Part shown: positions 4,135-21,680 of the stretch, in pieces
Layout: every line of letters begins with the position of its first letter
How positions within the stretch are numbered: position 1 is the stretch's first letter
From: a virus
Length of the DNA stretch: 21,853 nt
IMG/VR virus record: IMGVR_UViG_3300028392_001143
Span: 1-21,853 of that record
Reading direction: 5' to 3' (one strand)
Notes under the pieces: model-generated
Seen by the model: the letters and a program-made list of their open reading frames with translations, nothing else
Told to the model about the DNA's origin: nothing
The model's database searches: none
Translations under genes and position numbers: made by a program

Positions 4135-7100
4135 ATGCCTATGCCAGATAATTTAGAAGATGCCCAAAATATAGCATATGGCAGAGATGCTTCTGCTCGT
4201 GCAATTGATGATAAAATTAGGGCGTTAACTAGTAATGCTCAATCTGGTTTAGATATGGCGGTTCAAACGCCTTATTTTGGTACTGGATTAGATCGGCCTA
4301 GTTTAGGTGGCGCTGGTATGCCTTCTGGCATTCATGCTTATCAAGGTGGCCCTCATTCTGTTGGGCCAGAAGGCTACAGCAATGAAAAAATTGGTAGTGG
4401 CGAAGGTTCTCAAGCATTTGGACATGGGCATTATTTTGCTGAAGCAGAACCTGTCGCAACAACTTATCGTGGGGATGCAGAGGCGCGTTATCGTCGTTTT
4501 TCTGGACACATGGACCCTAAAGAAGAATTTGCTTTTGATATAGCAACGAAGCCAAATGTTAGAGATTGGGATGTTATCCAATCTATTGCTCAAAAGTATC
4601 CTAATATTGGATTTGATGAAGCACAGGCAATTGCAAATAAGGCAATGGCTCAACGTGGCCATATGCACGAAGTTAATATCAATGCACAACCAGAGCATTT
4701 TCTTGATTGGGATAGGCCTTTAAGCGAGCAAAGTAAGCACGTTCAAAATGCTTTATCTAATTTTCCATCTAATCTTACTGGCGATGAAATTCATCAAAAA
4801 ATGTTTCATCAATCTAGAAAAGAACTTGTTAATCAAGGTGGTGGACAAGCATACTCTGCTTTAACAGCAAAAAAATTATTAGAATCAGGTTTAAAAGGCA
4901 TTAAATACCTTGATGCTAGTTCTCGAAGTGCCGGTGAAGGTTCACGCAACTACGTCGTATTTGACCCAAAGGATATTGAAATTATGCGTCGTTACGCAAG
5001 AGGTGGTGATGTAAGAGCGCATCATGCTGGTGGCGGGCGTGCCGGGGTTAACAATGCCAATGACGATATTGATACGTCTTATTTAGGTAATTTATTGCGT
5101 GGTCTTAAATCAATTCCAGAAACAGCATACAATTACTTGGCAAACACATCTTATAATCAGATGGGTTCTGACGCATTAGATTTGGGCAAAAATGTCTATC
5201 ACGACGTTACTGAGCACCCAATTGAGAATTTGCTTGGTGCATTGCCAGTTGTTGGAAGCGGCATGGCTGCATATGATGCTTATAAACTGAATGACCGTAT
5301 TAAACAGGCTTACGCGTCTGGGAACCATGAAGATGCCCAAAAGCTAGAACGGGCATTGGCATTATCCTCATTGGGTGCATTACCAATCTTTGGTGAATTA
5401 TCGTCAGTTGGCTCTAGCGCCGCTCGTATGGCCGAAGAGGCTGCGTTGCATGGTGCTGCTGAGACTGGAAGTCGTGCGGTTGCCAATTCAGTTCCGCGTG
5501 ATGCATACCAAGTGGCTGAAAACATTGCATCAAATAAAATTAATCAAGCACTTGATTCGGCTAAAAAACATATGTTTTCTGATGTTAGTGATGAGCGCAT
5601 TACAAGCCCCGATATTGGTGGGGATAGGGGTAAAGACGTGAGATCAAACCATAAAAAGGGTGGTCGTACTGGATACGCAACTATAGGTGGCGTGCCATTA
5701 TCTGAAGATGATCAGATTGATTATGCAAGGAATCTTGCTACGGGCAATGATCCTATGGCGGATGTCATACAAAATAAGATTAATGCTTTAAGCAGCAATC
5801 TTAATTTTGAAGATGTTACGCATAATCCCGGAATGGGCGGCAAAAGTATGTTGCCGGGTATGGCAGCAAATGCCTCTAATCAGCCAATTACTCGCAGTGG
5901 CGCTGATATGATGCGGAAAGACCCTGTTTTGGCCGCAAATCCACCTGTTTTGTCAAAGTTTGGTCGTCCATTTCATGAGTTGGAATACACTTATACGCCT
6001 AAAGATAATCTTGTTCCATATAAAGAAAAAAAACCCGAAGATTTGTACAATGAGCGGGCTTTAATTACACCATTTGTAGGTGATAAAACTGCGGGCAACT
6101 ATATCGTAAATAGCGTTATGAAAGCTCAATTAAGCAATCCATCTAGCATGGAGGGTGGTGGAGATTTTCAACGTCAATTGCAAAATCAAGGGGTTAATCC
6201 AGCAGCTGGGGCTTCCCGTGCTGGAGCAGTAGATTCTATTTGGACCAAAATATTAAATAAAAACCCAGATTTAGAGCGTCCTCTTTATTTCTCTCATACA
6301 GTTATGGGGAACCCATCTGGCGATTCATCGCACATGATGGCGCAAAGTTTGTTGCGTCAAATTGATCCAAGCAAATTAGATAAATTTGGTATTGATGCTG
6401 TAAATCAATATATGGGGTCAAAAATTAAAGATTGGCCCGGAATAGAAAACCCGCAAGCAGTGGAAGCCTTACTGCAACGTAATAACATTGGTGATCAAAC
6501 TTCAATTTTGGCAAAAGCAATGGACAAAGCAACGCCATATGCAGCTGGTTTCCCAGATGTGGGCGCAACTAGATTTGCTATTACCGATCCCCGCTTAATA
6601 AGCGCAGATCAAGGATCATCTGGTTATAGTTTATCAAAACTTGATTTATCAAAAACTCCATTCATGGTTGAAGATGGTCATCCAACATATCCAAAACAAT
6701 TTCCAAGTGTTGCTGGATATGAAGGTGGTTTGAAATATCAGGTTCCGACCAAACTCATGTTCAGTGATTGGGCAAAGGGAATCAAAGAAGTAGACAAGAA
6801 TGGAAATCCTATAACCCCAACTGGTATTCAATATACACTTGGCTCTCAAATGCCTGTTCAGCAAGCCCATCAAGAATGGTTGGATAATATCATGCGTCAT
6901 CAAGAAGAACATAAAAAGGTCTGGGGCTATCGCAAGGGTGGTCGTACCTTGGGCAACAATGCCATCGACAACGCATTACGTCTTGCCACTGGTGGTGATG
7001 CTGATAGCAATAAGCCTGATGCACCGATTACATTGCAGGATTTGAAAGATTGGAAGAAAGCACACCCGTTGTCATTAAACAAAAATGCAATGGACAATGT

Positions 7101-8700
7101 GTTTAGCAGCCGTCAATCGGGCTTTGAAGGCGCTGAACCTATTGCGATGCCAGCTAATCTTGATGAGTTAATGGCTTATTTACGCCGTAAACATCATGCC
7201 ACTGGTGGTAGAGCGCATTTCGGTTATGGCGGCGATACTGATTCTGATTCGCATCCAGAATCGGGCCAAACTGGAACGGCTTCAGCTGAACGATCCGCTG
7301 AGGCTCAAGCACAAGGTGATAAACGCACCAATGAACGTGGTTTTGCTGATCGGTCACAGCCTGATGCAGTTTCGGCTGACGTTGGATCGCGTGCGTTTGG
7401 TGGTGATTTTAATGTTGGCGGCGATAATTACACCGGACATGAAATGCCAACTGGCTTGGTTAACTATTCTGAGCAGCGCATGAATACGCCTTACGAGGGT
7501 AGTTTGTTGAGCGCAACAATGGACCCAAGCACTGCATTTGGTATGGGTTATGGTTCGTTGGTTGGTCGGCAAAACACTCGCGCTGGCGCAGCTGGCTTCC
7601 TTGGTAGCGCAATGGGTGAAAGTGGCGCAGAGCTTGACCCGTCAGCTATCAATGCCGGTTCTATCGGTATGTTGCAGGAAACTGGTCCGCGTCGCATTGG
7701 CTTGGAAAATACATTAGGAATTGACACTTCGTTGAAGGGCAACGCATTGCGCGATGCTTTAGCTGGGACGCAGATGGCCCAGTTGGGCTATGGCCTAAAT
7801 GAAGTTGCTACTAAACCAGAGTATGGCTTGACCAGAAACGCTATGGCGACAGGTACTAATGCGGCCAATGTAGCAGACATTGCGTTGGAGAATTTTGAGC
7901 GACCCACATTGGAAAACCAAATAAAATCAGCTCCATCCCGTGAGGCGTATGCTCAAGGTATTATGGCTGGTCGTCCATCGGGCGCTACTTTAGGCGTGGG
8001 TCAATATGATGCGGCCCCTGCCAGCTTCAGGGATGCATTGATGAGTGGCGTTAAACAAGCAGATCAACAGCGGGCAAGAATTAGTGGTTATGATGTCGGA
8101 TCAATGTTGGCTAACGCATCTGTTAGTGATGCAAGTAATGATCCGGCTATTACTGCTGCTCGTAATGCAGCTATTGCTTCCGGTGAAATGCCACAAACTA
8201 ATCCATACGCAGGATTTAGCAGTGAAGACCCAGCTGAAATTGCACGTTATAATGCGGCGATGAATGCCGCTGGGCCTAAAAATGCTTACGCTGACACGAC
8301 TTTAGGACAACGTGTTCCTGACGTTACAAGTAGAAATCCGTTTGTAAATGTTGCTCAAGGCGCGAGCAACTTCTTAACCAATATGATTACTCCATCTTAC
8401 GGTATTAACTCTCCAGAGTATAACAAGATTAGCCAAGCGATTGATATTGCTCGTGAGCCTAGAGAAGGGCGGGGCGGTGAACAACCGTACATTCCACCAA
8501 CGGCTACTACACAGGCACCAGCGGCTCCAGTAGCTCCGTATACGACTGAGCTTGGAACGTACAACCAGCAACTTCCATCAGTTGGTGGCATGACGGCGGC
8601 TCAGTGGGCTGCGGCCAATACTGCGGGTGATATGTCTAAAGTTCATGGTCGCATTAAGTACGTTAATGGTGCGCCAATGCTGGAATACTACACTCAGTAA
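4135..8700 (+). CDS. polyvalent virion protein: ART-like N-terminus, tail-lysozyme-like C-terminus
   Basis: The 1521-residue product is a mosaic. Residues about 63-285 resemble the ADP-ribosyltransferase domain of phage polyvalent proteins: GSGEGSQAFGHGHYFAE at 87-103, GIKYLD at 255-260 and NYVVFD at 272-277. Two hydrophobic, Gly/Ala-rich segments (about 363-383 and 407-425) may touch membrane. Residues about 610-930 contain LITPFVGDKTAGNY (from 643) and look like a second conserved phage domain of unknown function. Residues about 1145-1257 match the phage tail-lysozyme pattern (GFLGSAMGESG, IGMLQETGPRR, ALENFERP) with E1162 as candidate catalytic acid. K/R-x-GGR motifs lie near 289, 299, 508, 934 and 1024, at module borders, and a short motif (IDxAxxLATGxD) repeats. 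It is probably packaged or tail-associated and delivered on infection. Base composition varies by module. Start: AGGAG 9 bases upstream. Confidence 0.85.
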   Translation: MPMPDNLEDAQNIAYGRDASARAIDDKIRALTSNAQSGLDMAVQTPYFGTGLDRPSLGGAGMPSGIHAYQGGPHSVGPEGYSNEKIGSGEGSQAFGHGHYFAEAEPVATTYRGDAEARYRRFSGHMDPKEEFAFDIATKPNVRDWDVIQSIAQKYPNIGFDEAQAIANKAMAQRGHMHEVNINAQPEHFLDWDRPLSEQSKHVQNALSNFPSNLTGDEIHQKMFHQSRKELVNQGGGQAYSALTAKKLLESGLKGIKYLDASSRSAGEGSRNYVVFDPKDIEIMRRYARGGDVRAHHAGGGRAGVNNANDDIDTSYLGNLLRGLKSIPETAYNYLANTSYNQMGSDALDLGKNVYHDVTEHPIENLLGALPVVGSGMAAYDAYKLNDRIKQAYASGNHEDAQKLERALALSSLGALPIFGELSSVGSSAARMAEEAALHGAAETGSRAVANSVPRDAYQVAENIASNKINQALDSAKKHMFSDVSDERITSPDIGGDRGKDVRSNHKKGGRTGYATIGGVPLSEDDQIDYARNLATGNDPMADVIQNKINALSSNLNFEDVTHNPGMGGKSMLPGMAANASNQPITRSGADMMRKDPVLAANPPVLSKFGRPFHELEYTYTPKDNLVPYKEKKPEDLYNERALITPFVGDKTAGNYIVNSVMKAQLSNPSSMEGGGDFQRQLQNQGVNPAAGASRAGAVDSIWTKILNKNPDLERPLYFSHTVMGNPSGDSSHMMAQSLLRQIDPSKLDKFGIDAVNQYMGSKIKDWPGIENPQAVEALLQRNNIGDQTSILAKAMDKATPYAAGFPDVGATRFAITDPRLISADQGSSGYSLSKLDLSKTPFMVEDGHPTYPKQFPSVAGYEGGLKYQVPTKLMFSDWAKGIKEVDKNGNPITPTGIQYTLGSQMPVQQAHQEWLDNIMRHQEEHKKVWGYRKGGRTLGNNAIDNALRLATGGDADSNKPDAPITLQDLKDWKKAHPLSLNKNAMDNVFSSRQSGFEGAEPIAMPANLDELMAYLRRKHHATGGRAHFGYGGDTDSDSHPESGQTGTASAERSAEAQAQGDKRTNERGFADRSQPDAVSADVGSRAFGGDFNVGGDNYTGHEMPTGLVNYSEQRMNTPYEGSLLSATMDPSTAFGMGYGSLVGRQNTRAGAAGFLGSAMGESGAELDPSAINAGSIGMLQETGPRRIGLENTLGIDTSLKGNALRDALAGTQMAQLGYGLNEVATKPEYGLTRNAMATGTNAANVADIALENFERPTLENQIKSAPSREAYAQGIMAGRPSGATLGVGQYDAAPASFRDALMSGVKQADQQRARISGYDVGSMLANASVSDASNDPAITAARNAAIASGEMPQTNPYAGFSSEDPAEIARYNAAMNAAGPKNAYADTTLGQRVPDVTSRNPFVNVAQGASNFLTNMITPSYGINSPEYNKISQAIDIAREPREGRGGEQPYIPPTATTQAPAAPVAPYTTELGTYNQQLPSVGGMTAAQWAAANTAGDMSKVHGRIKYVNGAPMLEYYTQ
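4162..4236 (+). repeat. module-start repeat, copy 1 of the polyvalent protein
   Basis: Residues 10-34 align without gaps to residues 531-555 (offset 521), with identities at A10, N12, A14, G16, D18, A21, I24, K27, I28, A30, L31, S33 and N34. This is a diverged protein-level repeat. Confidence 0.6.
5725..5799 (+). repeat. module-start repeat, copy 2 of the polyvalent protein
   Basis: Residues 531-555 form the second copy and lie shortly after a KKGGR motif at 507-511. A shorter third copy, IDNALRLATGGD, is at residues 944-955, just after KGGR at 934-937. The core pattern is ID-x-A-x-x-L-A-T-G-x-D. Confidence 0.6.
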
Positions 8701-8707
8701 AGTATGA

Positions 8708-8736
8708 TTGTACAAATATTAAAAACACGCTATTAT
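8708..8736 (+). promoter_or_regulatory. possible promoter before the 390-aa gene
   Basis: TTGTAC (8708-8713) and TATTAT (8731-8736) are spaced by 17 bases in the AT-rich 61-base gap, followed by AGGAG (8751-8755) 6 bases before ATG 8762. The -10 is good; the -35 matches only at TTG. Confidence 0.4.
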
Positions 8737-8761
8737 TCGTCGTCCCTGTCAGGAGCTGCCC

Positions 8762-9934
8762 ATGTCTGAACTAGCTAAATCATCACGCGAAGCAATGCGT
8801 GCAAAGGCGAAACGTCTTACCTCTGGTGAACCACACACCAAGGTTGATTCGTCCACATGGTCTCCTCCTGAGATGGAAAACGCTGGTATCAAGACCGGTG
8901 CTCGCCCACTTAGCAAGCGTCAGTACAAGTCTGGCGGTAAAGTTCATGGAGCAGATGCTAAGAAGCGTGCTGACCGTGCCAAGCGCAAGTCGGGTGGCCG
9001 CACTGAGAGTGCTGATCGTTCGAAGCGTTTTCTGACGCCAGATAATTTGATTAACCGCGACGTTCGCATGGCTAACGATGACCGTGAAGGCATTAAGCAT
9101 GTAGGCGCATTCAAAAAGGGCGGTCGCATCCATAAGGATGATGGCGGTCAGGTTGATCCTATTGCACAGGCAATTCGTCAGGCAGAAATTGAAGACAACA
9201 TGAAGAACCGTGGCATTCCAGCCCGCGTTCCAATGCCTCCTCGTCGCCCAGTCCCAGTTCCAGTTATGCCTAGGGAACGTATCCCAGTCGGTTCAAGCCC
9301 AACTATGAAGCGTGGCGGCAAAGCTGCGAAGCATGAGGATGTTGCTGAGGACAAGAAGCTCATCAAGAAGATGATTAAGTCATCGGCCATGAAGCGTGAT
9401 GAGCATTGCTGGGGTGGTGAAACCAAGCAGAAGAAGGCTGACGGCGGCAAGATTGATTGGCTCCGCAAGAAGCACGCTAAGGGCGGCGAAGTATTTTCTG
9501 GCAATTCGGTTACAAAGATTCCGGGTGAAGTACCGGGTGGTCGCAAGGCTCATAAGCATGGTGGCAAGGCCAAGGGTAAGACACACATTAATATCAATGT
9601 GAATGCTCATCCGGCTGGCGGTATGCCAATGGCTGGTGGTCCAATGGGCGGTCCTCCAATGATGCCTCCTCGTCCTCCAATGGCTCCCCCAATGGCTCCT
9701 CCTGCTGGTGGTACTCCAATGGGTGGTGGTCAGCAGATTGATCCAGCTATGCTCGCGATGTTGGCCAAGGGCGGCGCTGGCGGCCCCCCTCCAATGCCTC
9801 CTCAGGGTGGTATGCCAATGGCTCGTAAGTCAGGCGGTCGCACGATGGGCAAGCCTGAACATGTTATTGACCACGCCGCTGGTGGTGGTCTTGGCCGTCT
9901 TGAGAAGATCAAGGCATACGGTCACAAAGCATAA
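8762..9934 (+). CDS. Lys/Gly-rich repeat protein with K-x-GG-[RK] motifs, 390 aa
   Basis: The product is very basic and low in complexity. Residues 1-50 (REAMRAKAKRLTSGEPHTKV, STWSPPEMENA) resemble a family of uncharacterised proteins in uncultured tailed phages (from memory). Basic double-glycine motifs recur: KSGGK 56-60, KSGGR 76-80, KKGGR 118-122, KRGGK 183-187, ADGGK 226-230, KGGE 240-243, PGGR 258-261, KHGGK 265-269, KGGA 336-339 and KSGGR 356-360. Residues about 284-355 are a Pro/Met/Gly-rich tract. It is predicted to be largely unfolded, so it may bind DNA or RNA, be packaged with DNA, or act as an assembly linker. Residues 66-81 are close to residues 89-104 of the 133-aa protein at 14910. 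GC content is clearly higher than in the gene before it. A strong terminator follows. Confidence 0.85.
   Translation: MSELAKSSREAMRAKAKRLTSGEPHTKVDSSTWSPPEMENAGIKTGARPLSKRQYKSGGKVHGADAKKRADRAKRKSGGRTESADRSKRFLTPDNLINRDVRMANDDREGIKHVGAFKKGGRIHKDDGGQVDPIAQAIRQAEIEDNMKNRGIPARVPMPPRRPVPVPVMPRERIPVGSSPTMKRGGKAAKHEDVAEDKKLIKKMIKSSAMKRDEHCWGGETKQKKADGGKIDWLRKKHAKGGEVFSGNSVTKIPGEVPGGRKAHKHGGKAKGKTHININVNAHPAGGMPMAGGPMGGPPMMPPRPPMAPPMAPPAGGTPMGGGQQIDPAMLAMLAKGGAGGPPPMPPQGGMPMARKSGGRTMGKPEHVIDHAAGGGLGRLEKIKAYGHKA
8957..9004 (+). repeat. basic module shared with the 133-aa protein (copy 1)
   Basis: Residues 66-81 (AKKRADRAKRKSGGRT) match AKMRADRPKRKAGGKV of the gene at 14910 at 11 of 16 positions. An HG pair three residues before is also shared. 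Confidence 0.65.
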
Positions 9935-9962
9935 TCTTTGGTTTTTCCCCCAAAGACAAACT

Positions 9963-9994
9963 AAGCCGTGGCTTAATTGCTGCGGCTTTTTTTT
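9963..9994 (+). terminator. rho-independent terminator
   Basis: AAGCCGTGGC (9963-9972) pairs with GCTGCGGCTT (9979-9988) around a TTAATT loop, with two G-T pairs. It is followed by a run of T to 9994. It ends the polyvalent/390-aa unit. Confidence 0.88.
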
Positions 9995-10047
9995 GTTTAA
10001 ATTCATTGGGACATTACGATCATCGCAAACAAATGACCAAAGAACGG

Positions 10048-10063
10048 TATTATAGTACCTCTC
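10048..10063 (+). promoter_or_regulatory. possible -10 with near-leaderless start
   Basis: TATTAT at 10048-10053 lies only about 10 bases before ATG 10064, and no Shine-Dalgarno sequence precedes that ATG. If transcription starts near 10060 the mRNA would be almost leaderless. No clear -35 is seen at the usual spacing, so support is modest. Confidence 0.35.
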
Positions 10064-10276
10064 ATGGCACAAACATATTCAGACAGGTTCGCCCGAATAC
10101 TTGCTCAATTGATTGATGAGACAATCATTGAAGAGATGGATCATTTGGGCAAGGGAATGATCGATAACATAGCGGACTATAAGTACCGCTCTGGGATCAT
10201 CTATGGTTTGCGAAAGGTTATCGACCTCATGGAAGAGGCCGAAGCCATTAATAACGGCAAAGAAAGGGATATCTAA
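10064..10276 (+). CDS. conserved small phage protein, 70 aa
   Basis: The product is acidic and mostly helical. Near its middle it has the pattern IADYKYRSGIIYGLRKVIDL followed by MEEAEA, which recalls small helical proteins found beside structural genes of many podovirus-like phages (pattern from memory, function unknown). It ends in TAATG, so its stop overlaps the GroES start by one base and the two are likely translationally coupled. Its own start has no visible ribosome site, although the ATG is the first in frame after a terminator. If a leaderless start is wrong, a later start would truncate the conserved part, so I keep 10064. An antisense frame here is a shadow. Confidence 0.7.
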   Translation: MAQTYSDRFARILAQLIDETIIEEMDHLGKGMIDNIADYKYRSGIIYGLRKVIDLMEEAEAINNGKERDI

Positions 10277-10668
10277 TGCCATATATGCGTATGGAGCACG
10301 CTAATGACCCCCAAAAAGCAATTTTAGAGGAAATTGGCAGCATTGACGACATCAATGTCTTCAATAATCAAATTTTGGTTGCAATCTACATGCGCCCAGA
10401 AAAAACCAAGAGCGGCATTATCCTAACAGACGATACCCGCAGCGAAGATCGGTATCAGGGCAAGGTTGGCTTGGTCCTCAAGAAGGGCGCAACGGCTTTT
10501 GTCGATCCAGACAACAAGTGGTTCGTTGATACCAATGTTGAAATTGGCGATTGGGTTTATTTCCGCGTCACGGATGGCTGGTCGGTCAATGTTCATGGCG
10601 TCTCATGCCGTATCCTTGAAGACACGGACATTCGTGGCAGCATTAAATATCCAGACACGGTTTGGTAA
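10276..10668 (+). CDS. phage GroES-like co-chaperonin
   Basis: The 130-residue product has the Cpn10 layout. The core starts near residue 24 (DDINVFNNQILVAIYM). It continues with the mobile-loop region PEKTKSGIILTDDT (41-54), QGKVGLVLKKG (61-71) and VEIGDWVYFR (88-97), and ends with VHGVSCRILEDTDIRG. Cellular GroES is about 95-100 residues; the N-terminal 20 residues and the C-terminal tail are extra. GroES caps the GroEL folding chamber. Phage versions such as T4 gp31 help fold the major capsid protein, which fits its position shortly before the scaffold and capsid genes. The start overlaps the upstream stop (TAATG), so translation is coupled. Confidence 0.85.
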   Translation: MPYMRMEHANDPQKAILEEIGSIDDINVFNNQILVAIYMRPEKTKSGIILTDDTRSEDRYQGKVGLVLKKGATAFVDPDNKWFVDTNVEIGDWVYFRVTDGWSVNVHGVSCRILEDTDIRGSIKYPDTVW

Positions 10669-10677
10669 GAGGTTAGT

Positions 10678-11559
10678 ATGACTGAAGAGAAAGAAATTCA
10701 GCCGGAAGTCGAAGACAAAATTGAAGTTGTTAACGATGATGCTCCGGTAAATGTGGAAAAAGCTGCGGTTGTTGATGAAATTACGCCTGAAGAGGGCATT
10801 AATCATCTTAAAAAGCAGTTGGAAGATGAGCGTAAGGCTCGTGCTGATGCAGATCGACGTGCAAACGAAGCTCAACATCTGGCTAACAGGGCGCAACGCG
10901 ACGTTCAGGACGGTGATTATCAGCTAATCGTGAGTGCTATTGATAAAGCAAAGAGCAATTCAGAGCTTTTAAAGAATGCTTATGCCGAATCAATGGCGGC
11001 TGGTGACTACCGTAGGGTTGCTGACATCCAAGAAGCTCTCGCACTTAACGCCAACAAGCTATCAACGCTTGAAAATGGCAAATCTGCGCTTGAAAATAAG
11101 TTGAGGCAGCCCGTTCAACAGGTAAATAATGATCCCGTTGAAGAATTTGCGTCACGTCTTACGCCCCGTTCGGCCAATTGGATCAGAAATAATCCAGATT
11201 ACGCTCGTGACCCTAAGAAGTACGAGAGTATGGTTCGCGCACACAACCACGCAATGGGTGAAGGCTACGTTCCCGATACCGATGCGTATTTCCAGCATGT
11301 TGAAAGCCGTCTTGGTCTGCGTAATGCGCCAGAACCAGAGGTGGATGATGATGTTGTGTCAGTGGCAGCCGCTCCAGTTCAGAAAAGAACAGCGGCACCG
11401 GCAGCCCCAACTACCCGCATGGCATCAAACACATCTGGTAAACCGACAACTGTTCGGTTGACGCCAGAGCAGCGTGAAATGGCATCCATGATGGGCCAAA
11501 CACCTGAAGAGTATGCAAGAAACATGGTCGCGCTAAAGCGTGAAGGCCGTTTAAACTAA
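10678..11559 (+). CDS. capsid scaffold (assembly) protein
   Basis: The 293-residue product is acidic at the start (EEKEIQPEVEDKIEVV), then strongly helical and charged (HLKKQLEDERKARADADRRA, about residues 44-63), consistent with a coiled-coil scaffold. A middle segment, FASRLTPRSANWIRNNPDYA, and a C-terminal Ala/Pro linker leading to LTPEQREMASMMGQTPEEYA are typical of scaffold-like proteins of podovirus-like phages. Such proteins fill the procapsid and guide shell assembly, then leave; the short C-terminal helical region usually binds the shell. Position before the decoration and capsid genes agrees. AAGAGG lies 5 bases before the ATG. No protease motif is seen in it. Confidence 0.8.
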   Translation: MTEEKEIQPEVEDKIEVVNDDAPVNVEKAAVVDEITPEEGINHLKKQLEDERKARADADRRANEAQHLANRAQRDVQDGDYQLIVSAIDKAKSNSELLKNAYAESMAAGDYRRVADIQEALALNANKLSTLENGKSALENKLRQPVQQVNNDPVEEFASRLTPRSANWIRNNPDYARDPKKYESMVRAHNHAMGEGYVPDTDAYFQHVESRLGLRNAPEPEVDDDVVSVAAAPVQKRTAAPAAPTTRMASNTSGKPTTVRLTPEQREMASMMGQTPEEYARNMVALKREGRLN

Positions 11560-11569
11560 GGATATGATT

Positions 11570-12109
11570 ATGACTGAAGCAGAAAAGTATAAAGTTGAAA
11601 AGGTTCCAGCACGTCAGCCAGTTCGTGAGGCTCTGCGTGAGGAAGACCCCCGTGAACGTGCAGCCCGTCGTGCGGAACAAATCCGTAATCAGCGTGGCGG
11701 TCTTGATAGTGATGGTATTGATGAGTTCTTTGTTGATCCATCCATTGTTCCAGATGGTTGGTCCTATGAGTGGAAGCGTCATACCTTTCTAGGCAAAGAA
11801 GACCCATCGTATCAAGTTCAGATCGCTCGTGGCGGTTGGGAAGCAGTTCCAGCAAGCCGTCATCCTGAGATGATGCCGTCGGGAAACTACACAACTATTG
11901 AGCGTAAAGGCCAGATTTTGATGGAACGTCCTTTGACGTTGACAAATGAAGCGCGTGATATAGAATTGCGCCGTGCTAGAACACAAGTACGTGCTAAAGA
12001 AGCTCAACTTAGTACAGCGCCCGACGGAACTATGACGCGTGAACATGACCGTGTTCGTCCTTCGGTAAAGAAGTCGTTTAGCCCTATCCCTGTTCCAGAG
12101 GATAAGTAA
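11570..12109 (+). CDS. conserved phage head-region protein, 179 aa
   Basis: Two in-frame ATGs exist, at 11564 and 11570. AAGGA (11558-11562) is only one base from the first but an ideal 7 bases from the second, so the start is 11570. The central part, FVDPSIVPDGWSYEWKRHT then ARGGWEAVPASRHPEMMPSG, and ILMERPLTLTNEARDIELRR match a conserved family of unknown function that sits between scaffold and capsid genes in many alphaproteobacterial phages (from memory). It has an Arg-rich N-terminus (RERAARRAEQIRNQRGG) and a late helical segment, and ends in a basic Pro/Ser tail. It may be a minor capsid or assembly component; no enzyme motif is visible. Confidence 0.75.
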   Translation: MTEAEKYKVEKVPARQPVREALREEDPRERAARRAEQIRNQRGGLDSDGIDEFFVDPSIVPDGWSYEWKRHTFLGKEDPSYQVQIARGGWEAVPASRHPEMMPSGNYTTIERKGQILMERPLTLTNEARDIELRRARTQVRAKEAQLSTAPDGTMTREHDRVRPSVKKSFSPIPVPEDK

Positions 12110-12119
12110 ACGACAACCA

Positions 12120-12182
12120 CTCGCCCTTGGGGAGGCGGGTCACAATTATTCTAGGTTGGCAGTGCCGGGCGCATAGCAACCT
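12120..12182 (+). promoter_or_regulatory. two hairpins in the leader of the decoration gene
   Basis: CTCGCC (12120-12125) pairs with GGCGGG (12134-12139), and AGGTTG (12153-12158) pairs with CAACCT (12177-12182). Neither is followed by a U-tract, so they are not plain terminators. They may stabilise or process the mRNA of the abundant head proteins, or modulate access to AGGA at 12192. Confidence 0.4.
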
Positions 12183-12204
12183 TCATCATTCAGGATTATC
12201 TGCT

Positions 12205-12825
12205 ATGGCGAATACGCAAGCGTATTACGGCTTCTTGCAGTTTCAGGGTGGTGCTGGCGGCGCTCCTACGTTCGCCCAGTCTCCACGTCGAATCGCAAGC
12301 ACCAACTCCACGGCCATTTACACTGGCGATCCGGTAATGCCGGTCGTTAGTACGGCCAATGGTTACATCACTCAGGCTGCCGCTGGCACGACTGCTCTCG
12401 CGGGCATTTTTGTTGGCTGCAAGTATCTTTCCACTTCGCAGAAGCGCGTCGTCTGGTCTTCTTATTGGCCGGGTTCTGATGCAACGGGCGACGTCGAGGC
12501 TTATGTTATCGATGATCCAGCAGCTCGTTTCATTGTTCAGACCAGCACCTCGTCATTCCCAATGACTGGCTCTGTTACGACCATGACTTCTGGTGTGATT
12601 GGTCAAAATGCTCAGTTCACGATTGGTACGGGTTCGACGGCGACTGGCCGTTCGGGTGCTTATCTTTCGGCTGTTGGCACGACGGCTACCTATCCATTCA
12701 CTATCGTCGATTACGCTGTTTCATTCGGTAACGGTGGCGATCCTACAACGCAGTATTGCAACGTAGTCGTCCAGTTCAACAATGAAGCATGGCGTTCTAA
12801 CGGCGCAGTGACCGGCATCTCGTAA
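12205..12825 (+). CDS. capsid decoration/structural protein, 206 aa
   Basis: The frame could be read from an upstream TTG, but AGGA at 12192-12195 and the sequence MANTQAYYGFLQF fix the start at 12205. The product is rich in Ser/Thr/Gly/Ala with alternating hydrophobics, typical of beta-sandwich virion proteins. Its pattern (ASTNSTAIYTGDPVMPV, AAAGTTALAGIFVGCKYLS, KRVVWSSYWPG, VEAYVIDDPAARFIVQT) resembles a family encoded directly next to the major capsid gene in many uncultured phages (from memory), likely a head-decoration or stabilising protein. It has no Lys-rich or enzyme motifs. It lies 13 bases before the capsid gene, so both are probably made in large amounts from one transcript. Confidence 0.75.
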   Translation: MANTQAYYGFLQFQGGAGGAPTFAQSPRRIASTNSTAIYTGDPVMPVVSTANGYITQAAAGTTALAGIFVGCKYLSTSQKRVVWSSYWPGSDATGDVEAYVIDDPAARFIVQTSTSSFPMTGSVTTMTSGVIGQNAQFTIGTGSTATGRSGAYLSAVGTTATYPFTIVDYAVSFGNGGDPTTQYCNVVVQFNNEAWRSNGAVTGIS

Positions 12826-12838
12826 GGAGTAAATAATT

Positions 12839-13753
12839 ATGGCTGTTAATCTCTCACAGATTAAAGACCTTTTGCTCCCCGGTCTCCGTGGCGTTGAAGG
12901 CAAGTATGAGATGATCCCATCTCAGTACGACAAGATTTTCACTAAGCATGAATCGAAGATGGCCCTCGAACGTACCGCTGAAATGCGTTACCTTGGTTTG
13001 GCTCAGTTGAAGACCGAAGGTGGTCAAACTTCGTTTGATTCGGGCGCTGGTGAGCGTTTTGTGTACAATCAGGAGCACACGGAAATCGCACTTGGTTACG
13101 CGATCACCCGTAAGGCAATTGATGACAACCTCTACAAGACCCAGTTCATGCCTTCGAACCTTGGTCTCATTGAGTCTTTCCAACAGACCAAAGAGATTTA
13201 TGGCGCGAACATTCTGAACACGGCCACTACCTATAATGCGGCGGTTGGCGCTGACGGTGTTGCACTTTGCTCCACTGCTCATCCTATCGACGGTTCTACG
13301 GTGGCTAACACCTTCACCGTCCAGCAGGACTTGAATGAGTCTTCGCTCCTTAACGGTATGATCAACATTCGTACCAACTTTAAGGATCAGGCTGGCCTGA
13401 AGGTATTCGCTCGTGGTCGCAAGCTCATCGTTCCACCACAGCTCGAACCAGTTGCAATTCGTCTCACGAAGACTGAACTGCGTCCGGGTACTGCGGATAA
13501 TGATGTCAACGCGATTCTTAGCACTGCCGGTGGTTTGCCAGAAGGTTACATTGTCAACGACTTCTTGACGTCTGCTTACTCGTGGTTCCTTTTGACCAAC
13601 ATTGATGGTCTTGCCTACATGGAACGAATCAAGTTCGAATCAGACATGCAGGTCGATTTTGTCACTGATAACTTGCTCGTAAAGGGCTATGAGCGTTACT
13701 CGTTCGGTTACTACAACTGGCGTGCGATCTTCGGTTCGTTCCCAACCTCGTAA
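12839..13753 (+). CDS. major capsid protein
   Basis: The 304-residue product starts MAVNLSQIKDLLLPGLRGVEG, followed by SQYDKIFTKHESKMALE, GERFVYNQEHTEIALGYAIT and a C-terminal part ending GYERYSFGYYNWRAIFGSFP. This layout matches the Mu gpT-like/HK97-fold capsid proteins of phages (from memory); the length fits a HK97-type shell subunit without a large delta domain. Residues about 140-155 (ALCSTAHPIDGS) and 188-205 (GLKVFARGRKLIVPPQLEP) fit family patterns, the latter being a characteristic basic-to-VPP stretch. AAGGAG 9 bases before the ATG is strong, as expected for the most abundant virion protein. Position after scaffold and decoration genes supports the call. Confidence 0.88.
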   Translation: MAVNLSQIKDLLLPGLRGVEGKYEMIPSQYDKIFTKHESKMALERTAEMRYLGLAQLKTEGGQTSFDSGAGERFVYNQEHTEIALGYAITRKAIDDNLYKTQFMPSNLGLIESFQQTKEIYGANILNTATTYNAAVGADGVALCSTAHPIDGSTVANTFTVQQDLNESSLLNGMINIRTNFKDQAGLKVFARGRKLIVPPQLEPVAIRLTKTELRPGTADNDVNAILSTAGGLPEGYIVNDFLTSAYSWFLLTNIDGLAYMERIKFESDMQVDFVTDNLLVKGYERYSFGYYNWRAIFGSFPTS

Positions 13754-13771
13754 CCTGAAGGAGAAGGCATC

Positions 13772-14899
13772 ATGTCTATTACTGCATTCTCTGGTCCAGT
13801 AGTTTCCTACGGACAGTCGGGCTTTGCCGATTACAATCCTGAATTAGGCCCGTCCCTGTTTTATGCAGGGACGGCACTTGCTGACCCTCGTTTAGCCTTC
13901 TCGTACCAGCCCGGCCAGAACTTCGGCGCTGTTACTGCTGGCTTCCTTGGTTCGAGCGATATCCTGACGTTGACCTATGCCCCCTTCACGCTCAGCACGT
14001 CTGCTATTGCAGCCGCTGCGAACGTTGTTAGTGGCACGGCTATGACGTTGGTATCAACCAACTCTACCTCAACCGGCGTTGCGGTTAGCCAATCATGCAC
14101 GAACCAGAATACTGGTGCGAATGTGACGGGCCTTCTCCTCATCGACGGCCTCGCTTCTTTCACAGGCGTTGTCGCAAGCAACATTCTAACTGTTTCGTCC
14201 CTCACGGGTACTGTTACGGTTGGCATGACGCTTTCGGGAACGGGTGTGGCGACTGGGACGATCATTGCGAACCAGCTTACCGGTCCATCCGGTGGCGCTG
14301 GCACGTACACGGTCACTGGTAATGCTACGGTTGCATCGGCAACGATCACTGGGACGATGAATGGTACGAATGCTTTGCTGCAACCTTTCGGTTCGGCTGC
14401 AAGTATCAATCTTTGGAACCCACAGTGCTTGGTTGCTCGTGCAGTTAGCGTAACCGGCTCTGCATCGGCCACTGGTGGCAATATCACTATCTCTGGTTAC
14501 GACGTTTACGGCGTTCCTATGAGTGAAGTTATTGCAGCCCCTGCGAGTGCCACGACGGTCAACGGTAAGAAGGCGTTTAAGTATATCTCGTCGGTAGTTC
14601 CGGCATTTACTGACGCGCACAATTACTCAGTTGGCACGACTGACATTTACGGCTTCCCTATTCGTTCGGAATACTTTGGTGACGTAGTAATTAACTACAA
14701 CGCTACTGGTATTACTGCGAGTACGGGTTATACGGCGGCTGTGACCACAAGTCCTGCCACCACAAGCACGGGTGACGTTCGCGGAACCTACGCATTGCAG
14801 TCGGCGGCTGATGGGACCAAGCGTCTCATGGTTCGTCAAGTACCACTCGTTTCGAACATTGGCAGCATTGCTGGTCTGTTCGGCGTCACACAAGCATAA
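13772..14899 (+). CDS. beta-rich virion structural protein with an inserted repeat domain
   Basis: The 375-residue product is Thr/Ser/Gly/Ala-rich. Residues 1-125 and about 206-375 read as one conserved virion protein ([14 protein letters not shown] at 242-255, [19 protein letters not shown] at 288-306, [11 protein letters not shown] at 346-356). Residues about 129-195 ([20 protein letters not shown], then GAGTYTVTG and ATITGT) look like a separate all-beta domain of a type widespread in phage surface proteins, apparently inserted in the middle. AAGGAG lies 8 bases before the ATG. Its place right after the capsid gene suggests a head surface or neck protein. The exact role is not known to me. 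Confidence 0.75.
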
Positions 14900-14909
14900 G
14901 AGGTAGGCC

Positions 14910-15311
14910 ATGAAGGGTCATAAGCATCACTACGGTCATGAGGTGCACCACAAGCATCCTCGTGCGGAACACAAGAAGGGCGGCTCAGTCAAGGCTCATG
15001 GCGTTGACGAAGGTTCGGCCAAAGAGGGTGATTTCTACGCTGATGAAGCCGTAGAAGACACCTATGCTGGCGCTAATTCTCCAACGGCTAAGGAAGCCAA
15101 AGAGAAGAAGCATGGCGGTCGCACTAAGCGCAAGCATGGTGGCCACGTCATGGGTAAAATCCACGGTGAACACGCCAAGATGCGCGCTGACCGTCCAAAG
15201 CGTAAGGCTGGCGGCAAGGTAGGTGCTAACATGCACCCGCTTTCGACGGCTGCACACGGCACGGAACCTTCTGCTCATAAGTCGTATGAGCCAGAAGAGC
15301 ACGGCAAGTAA
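14910..15311 (+). CDS. His/Lys-rich protein with K-x-GG-[RK] motifs, 133 aa
   Basis: The product is extremely rich in His, Lys and Gly (for example KGHKHHYGHEVHHKHP at the N-terminus), with no hydrophobic core, so it is probably disordered. Basic double-glycine motifs lie at 22-26 (KKGGS), 67-71 (KHGGR), 75-79 (KHGGH) and 99-103 (KAGGK). Residues 89-104 are nearly the same as residues 66-81 of the 390-aa protein at 8762. A middle acidic patch (KEGDFYADEAVED, 38-50) breaks the charge. AAGAGG lies 6 bases before the ATG. Possible roles are DNA or metal binding, virion packaging, or a linker on the capsid; none is proven. It ends directly at a terminator. Confidence 0.8.
   Translation: MKGHKHHYGHEVHHKHPRAEHKKGGSVKAHGVDEGSAKEGDFYADEAVEDTYAGANSPTAKEAKEKKHGGRTKRKHGGHVMGKIHGEHAKMRADRPKRKAGGKVGANMHPLSTAAHGTEPSAHKSYEPEEHGK
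15174..15221 (+). repeat. basic module shared with the 390-aa protein (copy 2)
   Basis: Residues 89-104 (AKMRADRPKRKAGGKV) match the module at 8957-9004 at 11 of 16 positions. Confidence 0.65.
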
Positions 15312-15358: not shown

Positions 15359-15601
15359 ATGACGGCTGCATGGACACGTTCTGAGGGCAAATCGCCTTCT
15401 GGTGGATTAAATGCTAAGGGACGGGCATCTGCTCGTGCTGAGGGCCATCATTTAAAGGCTCCAACTAAGGATAAAGACAATCCTCGTCACGATAACTTCT
15501 GTTCCAGAATGACCGGAATGCGAAGGAAGATGACTGGTTCGGCCAAGGCTGCTGATCCAGATAGTCGTATTAATAAGTCCCTTCGAAAGTGGGGTTGTTG
15601 A
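15359..15601 (+). CDS. small basic phage protein, DUF6321-like, 80 aa
   Basis: The sequence AWTRSEGKSPSGGLNAKGRA (residues 4-23) and LKAPTKDKDNPRHDNFCSRM, followed by DSRINKSLRKWGC, is the pattern of a conserved phage family that I recall as DUF6321. Function is unknown. The protein is strongly basic, with two Cys (residues 48 and 80). GGAGG (15349-15353) is 5 bases before the ATG. The stop overlaps the next start (TGATG), so the two small genes are coupled. It follows a terminator with no visible promoter, so it depends on read-through or a phage-specific promoter. Confidence 0.85.
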   Translation: MTAAWTRSEGKSPSGGLNAKGRASARAEGHHLKAPTKDKDNPRHDNFCSRMTGMRRKMTGSAKAADPDSRINKSLRKWGC

Positions 15602-17234: not shown

Positions 17235-17852
17235 ATGTTCTATGTGTATGAACACTGGAGAACTGATCGCGATGAATGCTTTTACGTAGGTAAAGGTAAA
17301 GGAAAACGCGCTTATAATATGTTAAAGCGTAATCCCCATCACAAAGCGATACAGAACAAAGTGATTCGTGAAGGGTTTGCCATTGAGGTCCGAATCGTTT
17401 CCTCTGGATTGACGGAAGACGAAGCATTTCAACTTGAAATTGAACGAATTGCGTTTTGGCGCAATCATAACATTGATTTAACAAACATGACGGCGGGTGG
17501 TGATGGCGTATCTAATCCCACTCAAGAAGTTAGGTTTAAAATTTCTAATGCGCTTAAAGGAAATAAACATGGCGCTCACAAAAGGTCAGATGAGACTAAA
17601 AAAGCGATTTCTGCATCAAAAATAGGAAATAAAAATGGAGTTGGAAACAAGAGTCGGGCTGGATTTAAGGCATCAGAGGAGCATAAGAAGAAACTTTCTG
17701 AGGCTCAAAAACGTCGTCGTGCAAATGAGACTTTAGAAGAGCGTTTAAGAATTGGTGCTTTTCATAAAAATAAAGTAGTATCAGAGCAGACGCGCATGAG
17801 GATGTCCGAATCCATTAAGGATTCTTGGATTAAAAGAAAGTTGGGTGTGTAA
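17235..17852 (+). CDS. free-standing GIY-YIG homing endonuclease
   Basis: The 205-residue product starts with a GIY-YIG variant: YVY (3-5) and YVG (17-19), with a catalytic-type Arg at 25, an E in EAFQLEIERI (candidate E68 or E70) and the family's NMTAGGDG near 84-91. From about 97 to 160 there are Lys-rich repeats (RFKISNALKGNKHG, TKKAISASKIGNKNG, HKKKLSEAQKRR) typical of NUMOD3 DNA-binding modules. Such enzymes cut intron-less or endonuclease-less alleles and spread by gene conversion. It sits between the gp4-like gene and the zinc-ribbon protein. An ATG overlapping the previous stop gives only a 6-codon frame, so the true start is 17235. Its stop overlaps the next start (TAATG). It looks more AT-rich than its neighbours, in keeping with insertion. 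Confidence 0.9.
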   Translation: MFYVYEHWRTDRDECFYVGKGKGKRAYNMLKRNPHHKAIQNKVIREGFAIEVRIVSSGLTEDEAFQLEIERIAFWRNHNIDLTNMTAGGDGVSNPTQEVRFKISNALKGNKHGAHKRSDETKKAISASKIGNKNGVGNKSRAGFKASEEHKKKLSEAQKRRRANETLEERLRIGAFHKNKVVSEQTRMRMSESIKDSWIKRKLGV

Positions 17853-18589
17853 TGGGATATGCATCTCTTTCCGGTCGCGCTAGAACTAGTTCTAGAAATC
17901 CAAATGCACATGCGATTTGTGATCGTTGTGGATTTCGTTATAACCACAACCAATTACGTTGGCAGTACGATTGGGCCGGAGCCAGCTTAATCAATAAGCG
18001 TATATTAATTTGCGCTCCTTGTGAGGACGTCCCGCAAAACCAACTTCGCGCCATTATTCTTCCGGCTGATCCAATGCCGATTATAAATGCGCGTGTTGAG
18101 CCATTTGCTAGTGATGAGACCGATAATGTTACAATTAATGCTAAGACTGTCACTGACTTTTGGACTGGCATTCCAATTCCATCAACAACCACAATTTCTA
18201 CTCAGGACGGCGTGAATGTTACAACACAGGTTCTTGGGAAGAATAAAGGTCTAAATCAAAACGCTGTGATGCCATTGATTAATGGTAAAACATACCGCGT
18301 CACGCTTAATCCACTGTCCATTACGTCTCAAACGGGAACAAGCACGATTACGGTGACGTTTTCATCAGCGCATGGATTAAGCACTGATGATCAAATTGCG
18401 GTTGAAGGTTTAACTAATAGAAACGCTGACGGCATTTATAGTGTAACTGTTACGACCGCTACGGCCTTCACATATCAGGTAAGCAATGCTATACCAGCGG
18501 GTGGATTGCTCCAAGGCACTACTTTGATGGTAACTGCATTGGTTGGTCTTCCTTATAATTACAACCAGATACCACTTACCGGGGTTTAG
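17852..18589 (+). CDS. zinc-ribbon virion protein with a C-terminal beta module, 245 aa
   Basis: C23-x-x-C26 and C54-x-x-C57 flank [16 protein letters not shown], a pattern I know from a conserved phage structural protein beside gp4-like genes (ICDRCGFRY...[16 protein letters not shown]). It probably binds one zinc. Residues about 156-215 ([20 protein letters not shown], then [17 protein letters not shown]) are a beta module of the kind often mis-annotated as a ubiquitin-activating-enzyme FCCH domain. The same module occurs twice in the tail fibre that follows. It is likely a neck or tail component. Start and stop overlap neighbouring frames or spacing of one base, so translation is coupled. 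Confidence 0.85.
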
Positions 18590-18590
18590 A

Positions 18591-21500
18591 ATGGCGAACA
18601 TCACCTTAACCAATCTTCCTACGGTAACATCTTTGAACGGCACAGAGCCACTTCTTGGTGTGCAATCAAATACATCTGTCCAAATTACCACGGGCCAGAT
18701 TGTAAGCCTTGCTACTGGTGGTGGCGGTGTTACCCCATTACCAGTAATTGCTGGTGGTACAGGGGACACAACACTTACCCAATATGGCTTATTATATGGC
18801 AATGGCACGGCCCCTGTAACTTCTTTGGCTCCACCAGCCGGTACAAACTATGTCCTCGTCGGGTCCGCTGGCTCTGCGCCATCGTGGCAGGCCACTATTC
18901 CCGTCACGGCGGGTGTTGATTCTATTTCGTTTGGCACCACAGGGCTAACACCGTCTACGAATACGGCTGGTGTCATCACGGTTGCGGGTACGCTTGTAGC
19001 GGCCAACGGCGGAACGGGACAATCATCCTACACAATCGGTGATTTGCTATACGCATCGTCCTCCACGGCTCTTTCCAAACTTGCCGATGTAGCTACAGGA
19101 TCGGTGTTGATTTCTGGTGGCGTAGGTGCGGCTCCGTCTTATTCTTCGTCACCAACGCTTACGACGTCGTTAACAACGCCACTCCATATTGGCGGAACTG
19201 CTGCGTCGTCCACCTTAACGCTTGAATCCACATCTGGCGCAGGTACGTCTGACAGCATTATCTTTAAGACGGGTAGCCAAGTTACGGCTATGACGATTGG
19301 AACTGCGCAAAACGTCAACATTGGGACAACTGCTGTTTCATCTGTCGCTACGTTGCGAATTAATAAAAACATAACAGGAGGAACAACCGCTTATAATCTG
19401 TTAAACCAAGGCACTGTTCAATCTGACGTAACTGCAATTGCTTATGGTAATATCTCACAACTTAACACGGCAGCAACCTCTTTTACTTTAGCAAGTTTGC
19501 TGCATTTTACAGCAGCGCAAGGAACAATTGGTATTGGGTCACAAATTACCACTCAATATGGGTTTAACGCAAACACAACTTTAATTGGCGCAACCAATAA
19601 CTATGGTATGTATAGTAACATACCATCCGTAACTACCGCCACAATTAGCAACGTAGCCCTCACATCTAACGTAGTGACAATTACGACTTCTTCGGCGCAT
19701 AGTTATGGCACGGGTCAATCTGTTATTGTTGCAGCCACAACTACTACATCGGTTAATGGTACATTTACGATTACGTCTGTTCCATCTACAACGACATTTA
19801 CTTATGCGTTGGTTGCTGCTGATATTGCCTCTGTTGCAGACACGGGCAGCACATATGTCAACACAGGGCGGTATAATTTCTATGCTGCTGGCACTGCACC
19901 AAATCTTTTTCAAGGTGGATTAACTATTGCTGGCGGCGCAAATACGGGAGGCGCTGCTTTAGCCCTTGGTTCACCAGCCGCATTAAGAGTTCCGGCCGCT
20001 ACTTATACTGATATTGTAAGTTCTGGAACTGTTTCAATTGCGCCAATTTCAATATTTCAAGGGGGCGTATTAGCTGCAAGAAATACAGTAACTTATACAA
20101 CCGCTGCAACCGTCTATATTCAAACCGCCGCAAGCGCGGGGACAAACGTCACTATAACTAATCCATATTCGTTATACGTAGCGGCTGGAGCGTCTTATTT
20201 TGGTGGCGCATTAACGGCGGCATCTACCGTTACAATGTCACCCGCCAACAACTCTGTAACCATTTCTCCAACAGGAACTGGAACGGTAACAATTAATCCG
20301 GCAACTGCTGGTACGCTTAACAATATGGCAATTGGCGGCACAACTGCTGCTGCTGGTACGTTTACAACACTTTCTGGAACGACAAGCACGACATCACCGC
20401 TTATTATTGGTGGCACGACAGCATCGTCTACGTTGACGTTAGAATCCACATCTGGCGCGGGTACGTCTGATAGCATTATTTTCCAAACGGGTAGCCAAGT
20501 CACCGCTATGACGATTGGAACGGCGCAAAACGTCAACATTGGGACAGGTGCGGCAGTTGTTGGGCAAACACTCCGTCTTACCAAAACCATGACTGGAGCA
20601 ACGATATCTTACGGCATTACCAATCTTGGAACTATTCAATCTGATGTTACAACAACGGCCTATGGATACTATTCAGGTTTAGCCACACAAGCGGCATCTT
20701 TTACGCTCCCTACCTTGTCCAATTATCAAGTTGTTCAGGGAGTAATTGGCCTTGGTTCACAAATTACAAATCAATTTGGGCTTAACATTAATGCTAGTAT
20801 GGTTGGCGCAACCAACAATTATGGCGTGTATAGCAACCTTCCATCTGTAAACACTAGTACAATCAGCAACGTAGCCGCTGACGGCACGACTGCAACTATC
20901 ACAACATCTGCGGCGCATGGATACGGTACAGGCCAATCCGTCATTGTGGCGGCAACTACCAATACATCCCTGAATGGTACATTTACTATTACATCTGTGC
21001 CTTCTACCACGACATTTACTTACACCATTGCAGTTACGATTGCGTCTACGGCAGACACTGGCAGCACATACGTTAATACGGGACGGTATAATTTCTATGC
21101 GGCTGCGGCTGCGCCCAACCTTTTCCAAGGTTCTTTAACGGTAGGAAACGGTGCAAATACAGGTGGCGTAGCCCTTTCAGCAACATCAGCCGCAATTTTC
21201 CGTTCAGGCAGTGGTACAGGCACGACGTATACTGACATTGTTTCTTCTGGAACGGTTGGCACAGCACCCATATCATTGTTCCAAAATATGGCACTTGCTG
21301 CAAGAAACACTGTCACATATACGACAGCCGCAACGCTTTACATTACTGGCGCACCTACCGCTGGCACAAACGTCACCATAACCAACCCGTATGCCTTATA
21401 TGTAGCGGCAGGTACAAGTTATTTTGGTGGTGCTATAACTAGTACTAATGGCCCTACATTTTATAGCGGAACCGCAGTTCCGGCTGGCGGTACGGCAGGT

Positions 21501-21680
21501 ACTGGCGTTAAAATGTCTTCAACGTCCAATCTTGGAATTTTTTTTGGTAGCGGCGTTCCAACTTTATCGGCTGCACAAGGTTCCATTTATATTCGTACTG
21601 ATGGTTCCTCAATTTCAACTCGTATGTACATTAACACTAACGGTTCCACAACATGGACCAACGTAGTAACGGCGGCATAA
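18591..21680 (+). CDS. tail fibre / receptor-binding protein with 406-residue tandem duplication
   Basis: An upstream in-frame start overlaps the previous gene, so [12 protein letters not shown] at 18591 is preferred; the GGGG site is 6 bases upstream. The 1029-residue product begins with [24 protein letters not shown]-type segments typical of fibre shafts. Residues 197-541 and 603-949 are two tandem copies (345 and 347 residues). They share PL-[HI]-[40 protein letters not shown] and a terminal SYFGGA. Each contains an FCCH-like beta module (about 351-415 and 757-820). The linker (542-602) carries [14 protein letters not shown], a phage fibre motif. The C-terminus ([20 protein letters not shown], then [11 protein letters not shown] and TTWTNV) is a common fibre end. 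It likely contacts the host receptor. Confidence 0.9.
19179..20213 (+). repeat. tail-fibre tandem unit 1
   Basis: Encodes residues 197-541. It is aligned to unit 2 with a period of 1218 bases (406 residues). Parts are near-identical in DNA (for example around 19238-19325 compared with 20459-20543), which suggests fairly recent duplication or gene conversion. Confidence 0.85.
20397..21437 (+). repeat. tail-fibre tandem unit 2
   Basis: Encodes residues 603-949, the second copy of unit 1, with two extra residues and scattered substitutions. Confidence 0.85.

Follow-up and report, generated by a model that had tools for sequence, protein, structure and literature searches.

A recurrent glycine-glycine tag in modular, ejection and small basic proteins of uncultured phages

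A short motif built around paired glycines recurs in three proteins encoded by an uncultured freshwater phage and, in a longer form, in unrelated proteins of many other uncultured phages. The best reading of these GG sites is that they all repeat a single short linear motif, basic/x-GG-[RK]-[VIT], the full form of which is A-x-GGR[VI]GYxxGG. We favor, at somewhat less than an even chance, the interpretation that this tag is a docking motif for the loading of virion cargo. (From gene context we infer the virion location of the tagged proteins, their ejection and their binding.) A broader proposal is advanced more tentatively: that GGR[VI]GYxxGG, alone or together with an xxALxhA helix, constitutes a hitherto undescribed portable address label that loads unrelated enzymes as well as ejection proteins in many uncultured phages, effector modules being freely swapped while the label travels along. 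How phages choose the proteins that enter the head and are ejected is understood in only a few model systems. A motif common to unrelated cargo would make this selection a testable question; it would allow the injected effectors of uncultured phages to be predicted from sequence alone, and might serve for loading foreign proteins into the phage particles of laboratory strains.

The window and its tagged proteins

The window analyzed here comprises an entire IMG/VR virus record (21,853 bases) and represents part of the genome of a podovirus-like phage; it encodes an SU10-type portal, a GroES-like co-chaperonin, a capsid protein and an SU10-type adaptor. The portal and adaptor matches (PF23899, 42.7 bits, and PF24175, 36.5 bits) both exceed their cut-offs, and place the phage with the SU10/Pam1-like podoviruses. 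The capsid protein is 88% identical to that of MW202675 (Manatee Spring) and about 39-43% identical to pelagiphage and Roseobacter phage proteins. Capsid relatives with 81-93% identity also turn up in MAG contigs assigned to many phyla, with Verrucomicrobia, Planctomycetaceae, Gammaproteobacteria and Paceibacterota among the assignments (L273-L283), which are probably mis-binned phage DNA. Further along the window, a 205-aa protein resembling GIY-YIG homing endonucleases (17235-17852, + strand) lies between the adaptor and the next tail gene, with an 'intron associated endonuclease' at the equivalent position of MW202675, and a 1045-aa tail-fibre-like protein (18543-21680, +) has a long internal duplication, one stretch being present twice.

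Three genes of the window, all on the + strand, encode tagged proteins: a 1521-aa modular protein of polyvalent type (4135-8700), a 390-aa multi-tag protein (8762-9934) and, downstream of the capsid gene, a 133-aa basic protein that is 33% K/R/H (14910-15311). The strict motif, K-x-G-G-[RK], and the looser GG[RK] were counted and compared with shuffles of the same protein. The strict motif occurs six times in the 390-aa protein (0.19 expected, p=0.0002), twice in the 133-aa protein (0.07 expected, p=0.003) and once, as KKGGR at residue 507, in the 1521-aa protein (0.07 expected, p=0.07); it is absent from the window's other main ORFs. GG[RK] occurs eight times in the 390-aa protein and five times in the 1521-aa protein, the latter a modest enrichment taken alone (1.5 expected, p=0.015), and relaxing the last motif residue gives four sites in the 133-aa protein (0.43 expected, p=0.0002). 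An initial annotation of this DNA had overcounted the 390-aa protein at about ten motifs; its four motifs in the 133-aa protein hold with the last residue relaxed, two of them being strict. The five sites that it listed in the 1521-aa protein are all genuine GG sites, of which KKGGR alone is strict; ARGGD (GG at 290), AGGGR (300), RKGGR (935) and ATGGR (1024) are looser, of the form GG[RD] with no K at -2.

The 1521-aa gene is an open frame between the SU10-type portal and capsid genes, i.e. among late/virion genes, and its modules are shared separately with differently arranged proteins of relatives. Residues ~65-287 (4327-4995) are 53% identical to the N-terminus of a 985-aa protein of one relative (L043), and we call this module ADP-ribosyltransferase (ART)-like on the strength of that homologue, whose ART-PolyVal Pfam match is below cut-off; the window's own protein has no Pfam ART match. 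In the AlphaFold model the ART core has a pLDDT of 80-94, and from residue 292 onward the pLDDT is below 50. Tag 1, YARGGDVRAHHAGGGRAG (4990-5046; GG at about 290 and 300), is located here, and its GG290-291 is nearly invariant in 13 ART modules. Tag 2, NHKKGGRTGYATIGG (5647-5691; GG at 509 and 518), contains the protein's strict match and also has a pLDDT below 50. A helical stretch separates the ART-like module from a module of unknown fold (residues ~577-933; 5863-6933) that is partly folded in the AlphaFold model, gives no PDB fold match, and has homologues in other contexts in at least eight relatives. Tag 3, here combined with a helix motif, is WGYRKGGRTLGNNAIDNALRLATGGDA (6922-7002; GG at about 935 and 953), and tag 4 is KHHATGGRAHFGYGGDT (7186-7239; GG at about 1024 and 1032; pLDDT below 50). 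A phage tail lysozyme module, PF18013, follows at residues 1142-1276 (7558-7962; 34.8 bits, cut-off 28.2; recovered in a second search). Fold searches with both AlphaFold models of the 1521-aa protein gave no significant match, the second model being poor overall (mean pLDDT 48). In MW202675, three proteins occupy the position of the 1521-aa protein; among them they have GNAT, M15 peptidase, ART-PolyVal and pyrophosphatase domains.

The 390-aa protein matches no Pfam or PHROG family, and belongs to a family of 29 non-redundant members with conserved tags, in which 172 strict sites are found against 6.1 in shuffles. Its first strict tag, KSGGK (8927-8941), is invariant in these 29 relatives (K, G, G and K all 1.00). 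The second, KSGGR (8987-9001; GG conserved at 0.93/0.79), lies within RADRAKRKSGGR, a longer stretch that is common to the 133-aa protein. KKGGR (9113-9127; both G 1.00) is part of the double tag GGRIHKDDGG, and is followed by KRGGK (9308-9322; GG 0.97), KHGGK (9554-9568; GG 1.00), which comes after PGGR, and a C-terminal KSGGR (9827-9841; R 1.00, K 0.93, GG 1.00, R 0.86). Eight of the nine GG pairs of the tags (GG58 to GG267 and GG358, without GG218) are mostly conserved at 0.8-1.0, the mean column identity to the window residue being 0.46 in the same alignment; GG218 is a weak tag (0.52). Within the proline-rich stretch of this protein most GG pairs lack conservation, which provides an internal control against mere composition.

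The family of the 133-aa protein is likewise conserved. Its tags are KKGGS (14973-14987), recognized by sequence match, and, by sequence match and conservation, the double tag KHGGRTKRKHGGH (15108-15146) and a KAGGK inside RADRPKRKAGGK (15204-15218). The adjoining gene (15359-15601, +) encodes an 80-aa DUF6321 protein. In pelagiphage HTVC023P (L082:28020-28337), a protein whose C-terminus resembles this DUF6321 neighbour opens with an FKRGGDV tag, as if the 133-aa-type and DUF6321 neighbours formed a single protein in that phage.

Among 80 IMG/VR relatives, the strict motif occurs in 92 proteins: 41 are 390-like, 36 are 133-like, 2 more are of 133-like size and sequence (their contigs gave no capsid match, and they are counted among the same three genome positions), and 13 are encoded just upstream of the 390-like gene. 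None of the other ~777 proteins of these relatives has it. Both the enrichment over composition-matched shuffles and the conservation of motif positions in relatives for which the initial annotation had asked are found, the latter in the 29 390-like proteins and the 80 relatives.

Form, distribution and setting of the tag

In relatives the tag takes a longer form, GGR[VI][GA][YFH]xxGG. A gap of six residues between GG pairs is preferred (97 occurrences against 27 in shuffles with the searched form itself masked); within this gap R comes first, then I/V, then G/A, the R directly after GG being the commonest inner residue. The window's tags are degenerate versions of a GGRVGYxxGG consensus, which counts against the docking reading. 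Their codons differ, so that they are not recent DNA copies of each other; the suggestion that the motif had been copied by recombination therefore survives for the modules and fails for recent DNA copies of the tag. (In spacing controls run as DNA counts, the gap-5 matches listed fall mostly into one conserved enzyme-like family and many gap-7 matches are GGG overlaps. The gap-5 control also brought up, in L380, L381, L383 and others, a conserved tag-like stretch, VELKAAxSSSGGRIGYGGGSQKAK, mostly in ~360-aa frames.)

Searched as a DNA pattern in IMG/VR, GGR[VI]GYxxGG matches at least 120 stretches, against 43 and 15 in the whole collection for two permuted controls with the same codons. In the longest local frame there are at least 113 matches, against 8 and 4, an in-frame frequency at least 14-fold above the permuted controls. 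Among the matches listed, 55 of 115 tag loci have two or more tagged ORFs (0 of 50 control loci do). The 78 tag-bearing ORFs among the matches listed include 13 of the DNA ejection family (PHROG 4287), 5 pyrophosphatases and 4 ART-PolyVal proteins; the remaining family matches are to lysozyme, glucosaminidase, SLT, DarB-like and minor head proteins. Terminase, portal and head-tail adaptor genes are neighbours.

Tags lie at module borders. In differently arranged tagged proteins, 155 of 925 homology breaks fall within 10 aa of a tag, against an expectation of 60 and a highest value of 83 in 500 simulations. In the 1521-aa protein the breaks are at 287, 301, 312, 917, 931 and 1026, and the tags at about 290, 300, 935, 953 and 1024. 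The third module ends in G[FY]xxGGxV whatever comes next; in relatives this appears as GFKKGG[KRA]V followed by ALMIAKGxKK and a stop codon, or else by a pyrophosphatase or another tag. The tag segments, with pLDDT below 50, are predicted to be unstructured. Linkers are to be expected at borders anyway, since these proteins are modular partly by recombination, and this is a point against docking. The tags are also glycine-rich, and it is conceivable that they are flexible, easily unfolded spacers for threading through the portal and for module recombination, their sequence being incidental. That explanation is quite improbable. Residue order matters, as the permuted patterns demonstrate, which largely refutes it; the six-residue spacing is preferred; and tags also stand at protein ends, where there is nothing to space (GFKKGGKVRSALMIAKGLKKG-stop and YHARGGVAK-stop are examples). 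For the same reasons the plain flexible linker proposed in the initial annotation can be set aside.

An amphipathic helix motif, [IV]xxALx[hydrophobic][AVT] or xxALxhA in short, recurs beside tags and at C-termini, as in FKKGGKVRSALMIAKGLKKG-stop and HHARGGSVDHALQLAHYYSN-stop; the window's example is RKGGRTLGNNAIDNALRLATGG. The motif is found in the last 26 aa of 18 of 161 tagged and 16 of 999 untagged proteins (p=5e-8), several of the latter being of the same kinds as the tagged proteins. The regular expression was composed after examples had been inspected, and some of the ejection-protein C-termini are mutually homologous; the association is accordingly a lead. A ~200-aa protein of the ejection locus (L087:8474-9136 and G002:C1:47496-48161) has an N-terminal basic 'HPxxQxIAAALxxAR' helix and, in several relatives, VPIVAAGGEYVI-like stretches, which constitute another GG motif.

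The tag is limited to certain kinds of protein. In four long relatives it is found in modular cargo, multi-tag, 133-like and IVP-D/IVP2 proteins and in nearby proteins of ~165-220 aa. Every homologue identified there of a terminase, portal, GroES, scaffold, capsid, adaptor, stabilization, helicase, AAA or exonuclease protein is untagged; other small ORFs of these relatives yield a few single loose matches. It is also independent of the enzyme to which it is attached, homologous enzyme domains of phages outside this group being without it: Sulfitobacter phage phiGT1 encodes an untagged homologue of the ART domain, and no tag is present in the region surrounding the pyrophosphatase homologue of a Rhizobium phage. 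The original contention that unrelated virion-cluster proteins have a tag in common is thus borne out: the tag is conserved, restricted to the cargo/internal-protein class, placed at module ends and widespread in uncultured phages. Searches of the phage collection with the 390-aa protein and the ejection protein tested gave one environmental genome and no isolate, literature searches for the motif strings returned nothing relevant, and no match came from a 60-aa query built on a small tagged C-terminus. A BLAST match between a composite tag peptide and the VR2 repeat of Bordetella phage BPP-1 bbp36 was rejected as a low-complexity coincidence (GTATAGYRG repeats, in an early gene).

Docking and its alternatives

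What unites the tagged proteins is their expected place inside the virion, and docking for virion loading is favored on this account; among the four options of the initial annotation, a packaging signal, in the sense of a virion-loading signal, fits best, with virion location coming from gene context in fragmentary genomes. The tag would belong to proteins that travel within the virion, namely modular polyvalent enzymes, ejection or internal virion proteins, and the two small lysine-rich proteins. During assembly it would bind a common site, for which the scaffold-filled prohead, the inner face of the portal, packaged DNA and the 390-aa protein are candidates, and any tagged module would in this way enter the particle and be ejected from it along with the DNA. 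In this lineage the 390-aa protein may serve as a hub; a K-rich hub cannot be the general receptor, since it is seen in only 11 of the 115 tag loci listed.

The main rival to docking is nucleic-acid contact: basic GG[RK] loops would bind packaged DNA without sequence preference, and the tagged proteins would enter the head by coating or condensing it. Segments of the RGG/KGG type are known to bind nucleic acids. The 390- and 133-aa proteins, for which this option chiefly comes into question, are K/R-rich, the net charge around hub tags is +3.4 per 20 residues, and R is the commonest residue right after GG. Cargo tags, on the other hand, are weakly basic (+1.6 per 20 residues), often with D/E adjoining; non-specific DNA binding does not require the conserved V/I, G and Y or the six-residue GG spacing; and the terminase, polymerase-region and nuclease proteins tested in the four long relatives are untagged. 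We regard this explanation as unlikely.

There is little chance that the tags instead act after ejection on a host target (the envelope, RNA polymerase or the nucleoid) and are dispensable for assembly. The tagged modules are predicted host-modifying or wall-degrading enzymes, which would suit such a role, but structural ejection proteins and small proteins encoded next to the capsid gene are tagged as well, and the tagged phages come from widely differing habitats and presumably infect different hosts.

Cleavage by a phage protease, another option of the initial annotation, is unsupported, and we consider it very improbable that a protease cuts after GG and so separates modules before packaging or after ejection. 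The location of GG at module borders would suit processing, as would the precedent of phage P1 DdrB, which is described as cleaved before packaging (PMC5512222). However, conservation extends to both sides of GG, and a cleavage site does not fit tags that are a few residues from C-termini or that number up to nine in one module-free protein. The annotation of MW202675 names no prohead or C39-type protease; the scaffold-like 293-aa protein gives a weak protease-family match (E=0.012).

Comparison with known systems

Iyer et al. 2017 (PMC5512222) described polyvalent proteins in phages and conjugative elements. Like them, the 1521-aa protein and its counterparts combine several enzyme domains of unrelated kinds (ART, pyrophosphatase, GNAT, M15 peptidase, lysozyme) in a single chain encoded among virion genes, and the 1521-aa protein has at least two disparate domains in one polypeptide (the PF18013 lysozyme, the ART-like module and the third, shuffled module). 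The words 'glycine' and 'linker' did not come up in a search of that paper, and no recurring inter-domain motif was found described. The present motif differs from polyvalent proteins as described there in that it also links the modular chains to ejection proteins and small basic proteins.

In comparison with the podovirus ejection proteins of P22 and T7 type, the tagged IVP-D/IVP2-type proteins occupy the ejection-protein locus; we know of no GGR[VI]GYxxGG tag in P22 or T7 ejection proteins. In a flexible glycine linker composition matters and order does not; the permuted controls set the tags apart from this. RGG/KGG segments and C39 double-glycine leaders resemble the tags in having GG beside basic residues, with a helix ahead of it in some cases. 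The tags are without the repeated RGG boxes of the former. The latter, which are N-terminal with the helix at a fixed spacing to GG, were dropped as a candidate, since the tags are not N-terminal and the helix-to-GG distance varies. The T4-type capsid targeting sequence, a short peptide, is portable and directs unrelated proteins into the phage head; it occurs once, at the N-terminus, and the prohead protease removes it. The tags, in contrast, show no sign of cleavage, are repeated rather than one per protein, and are internal or C-terminal.
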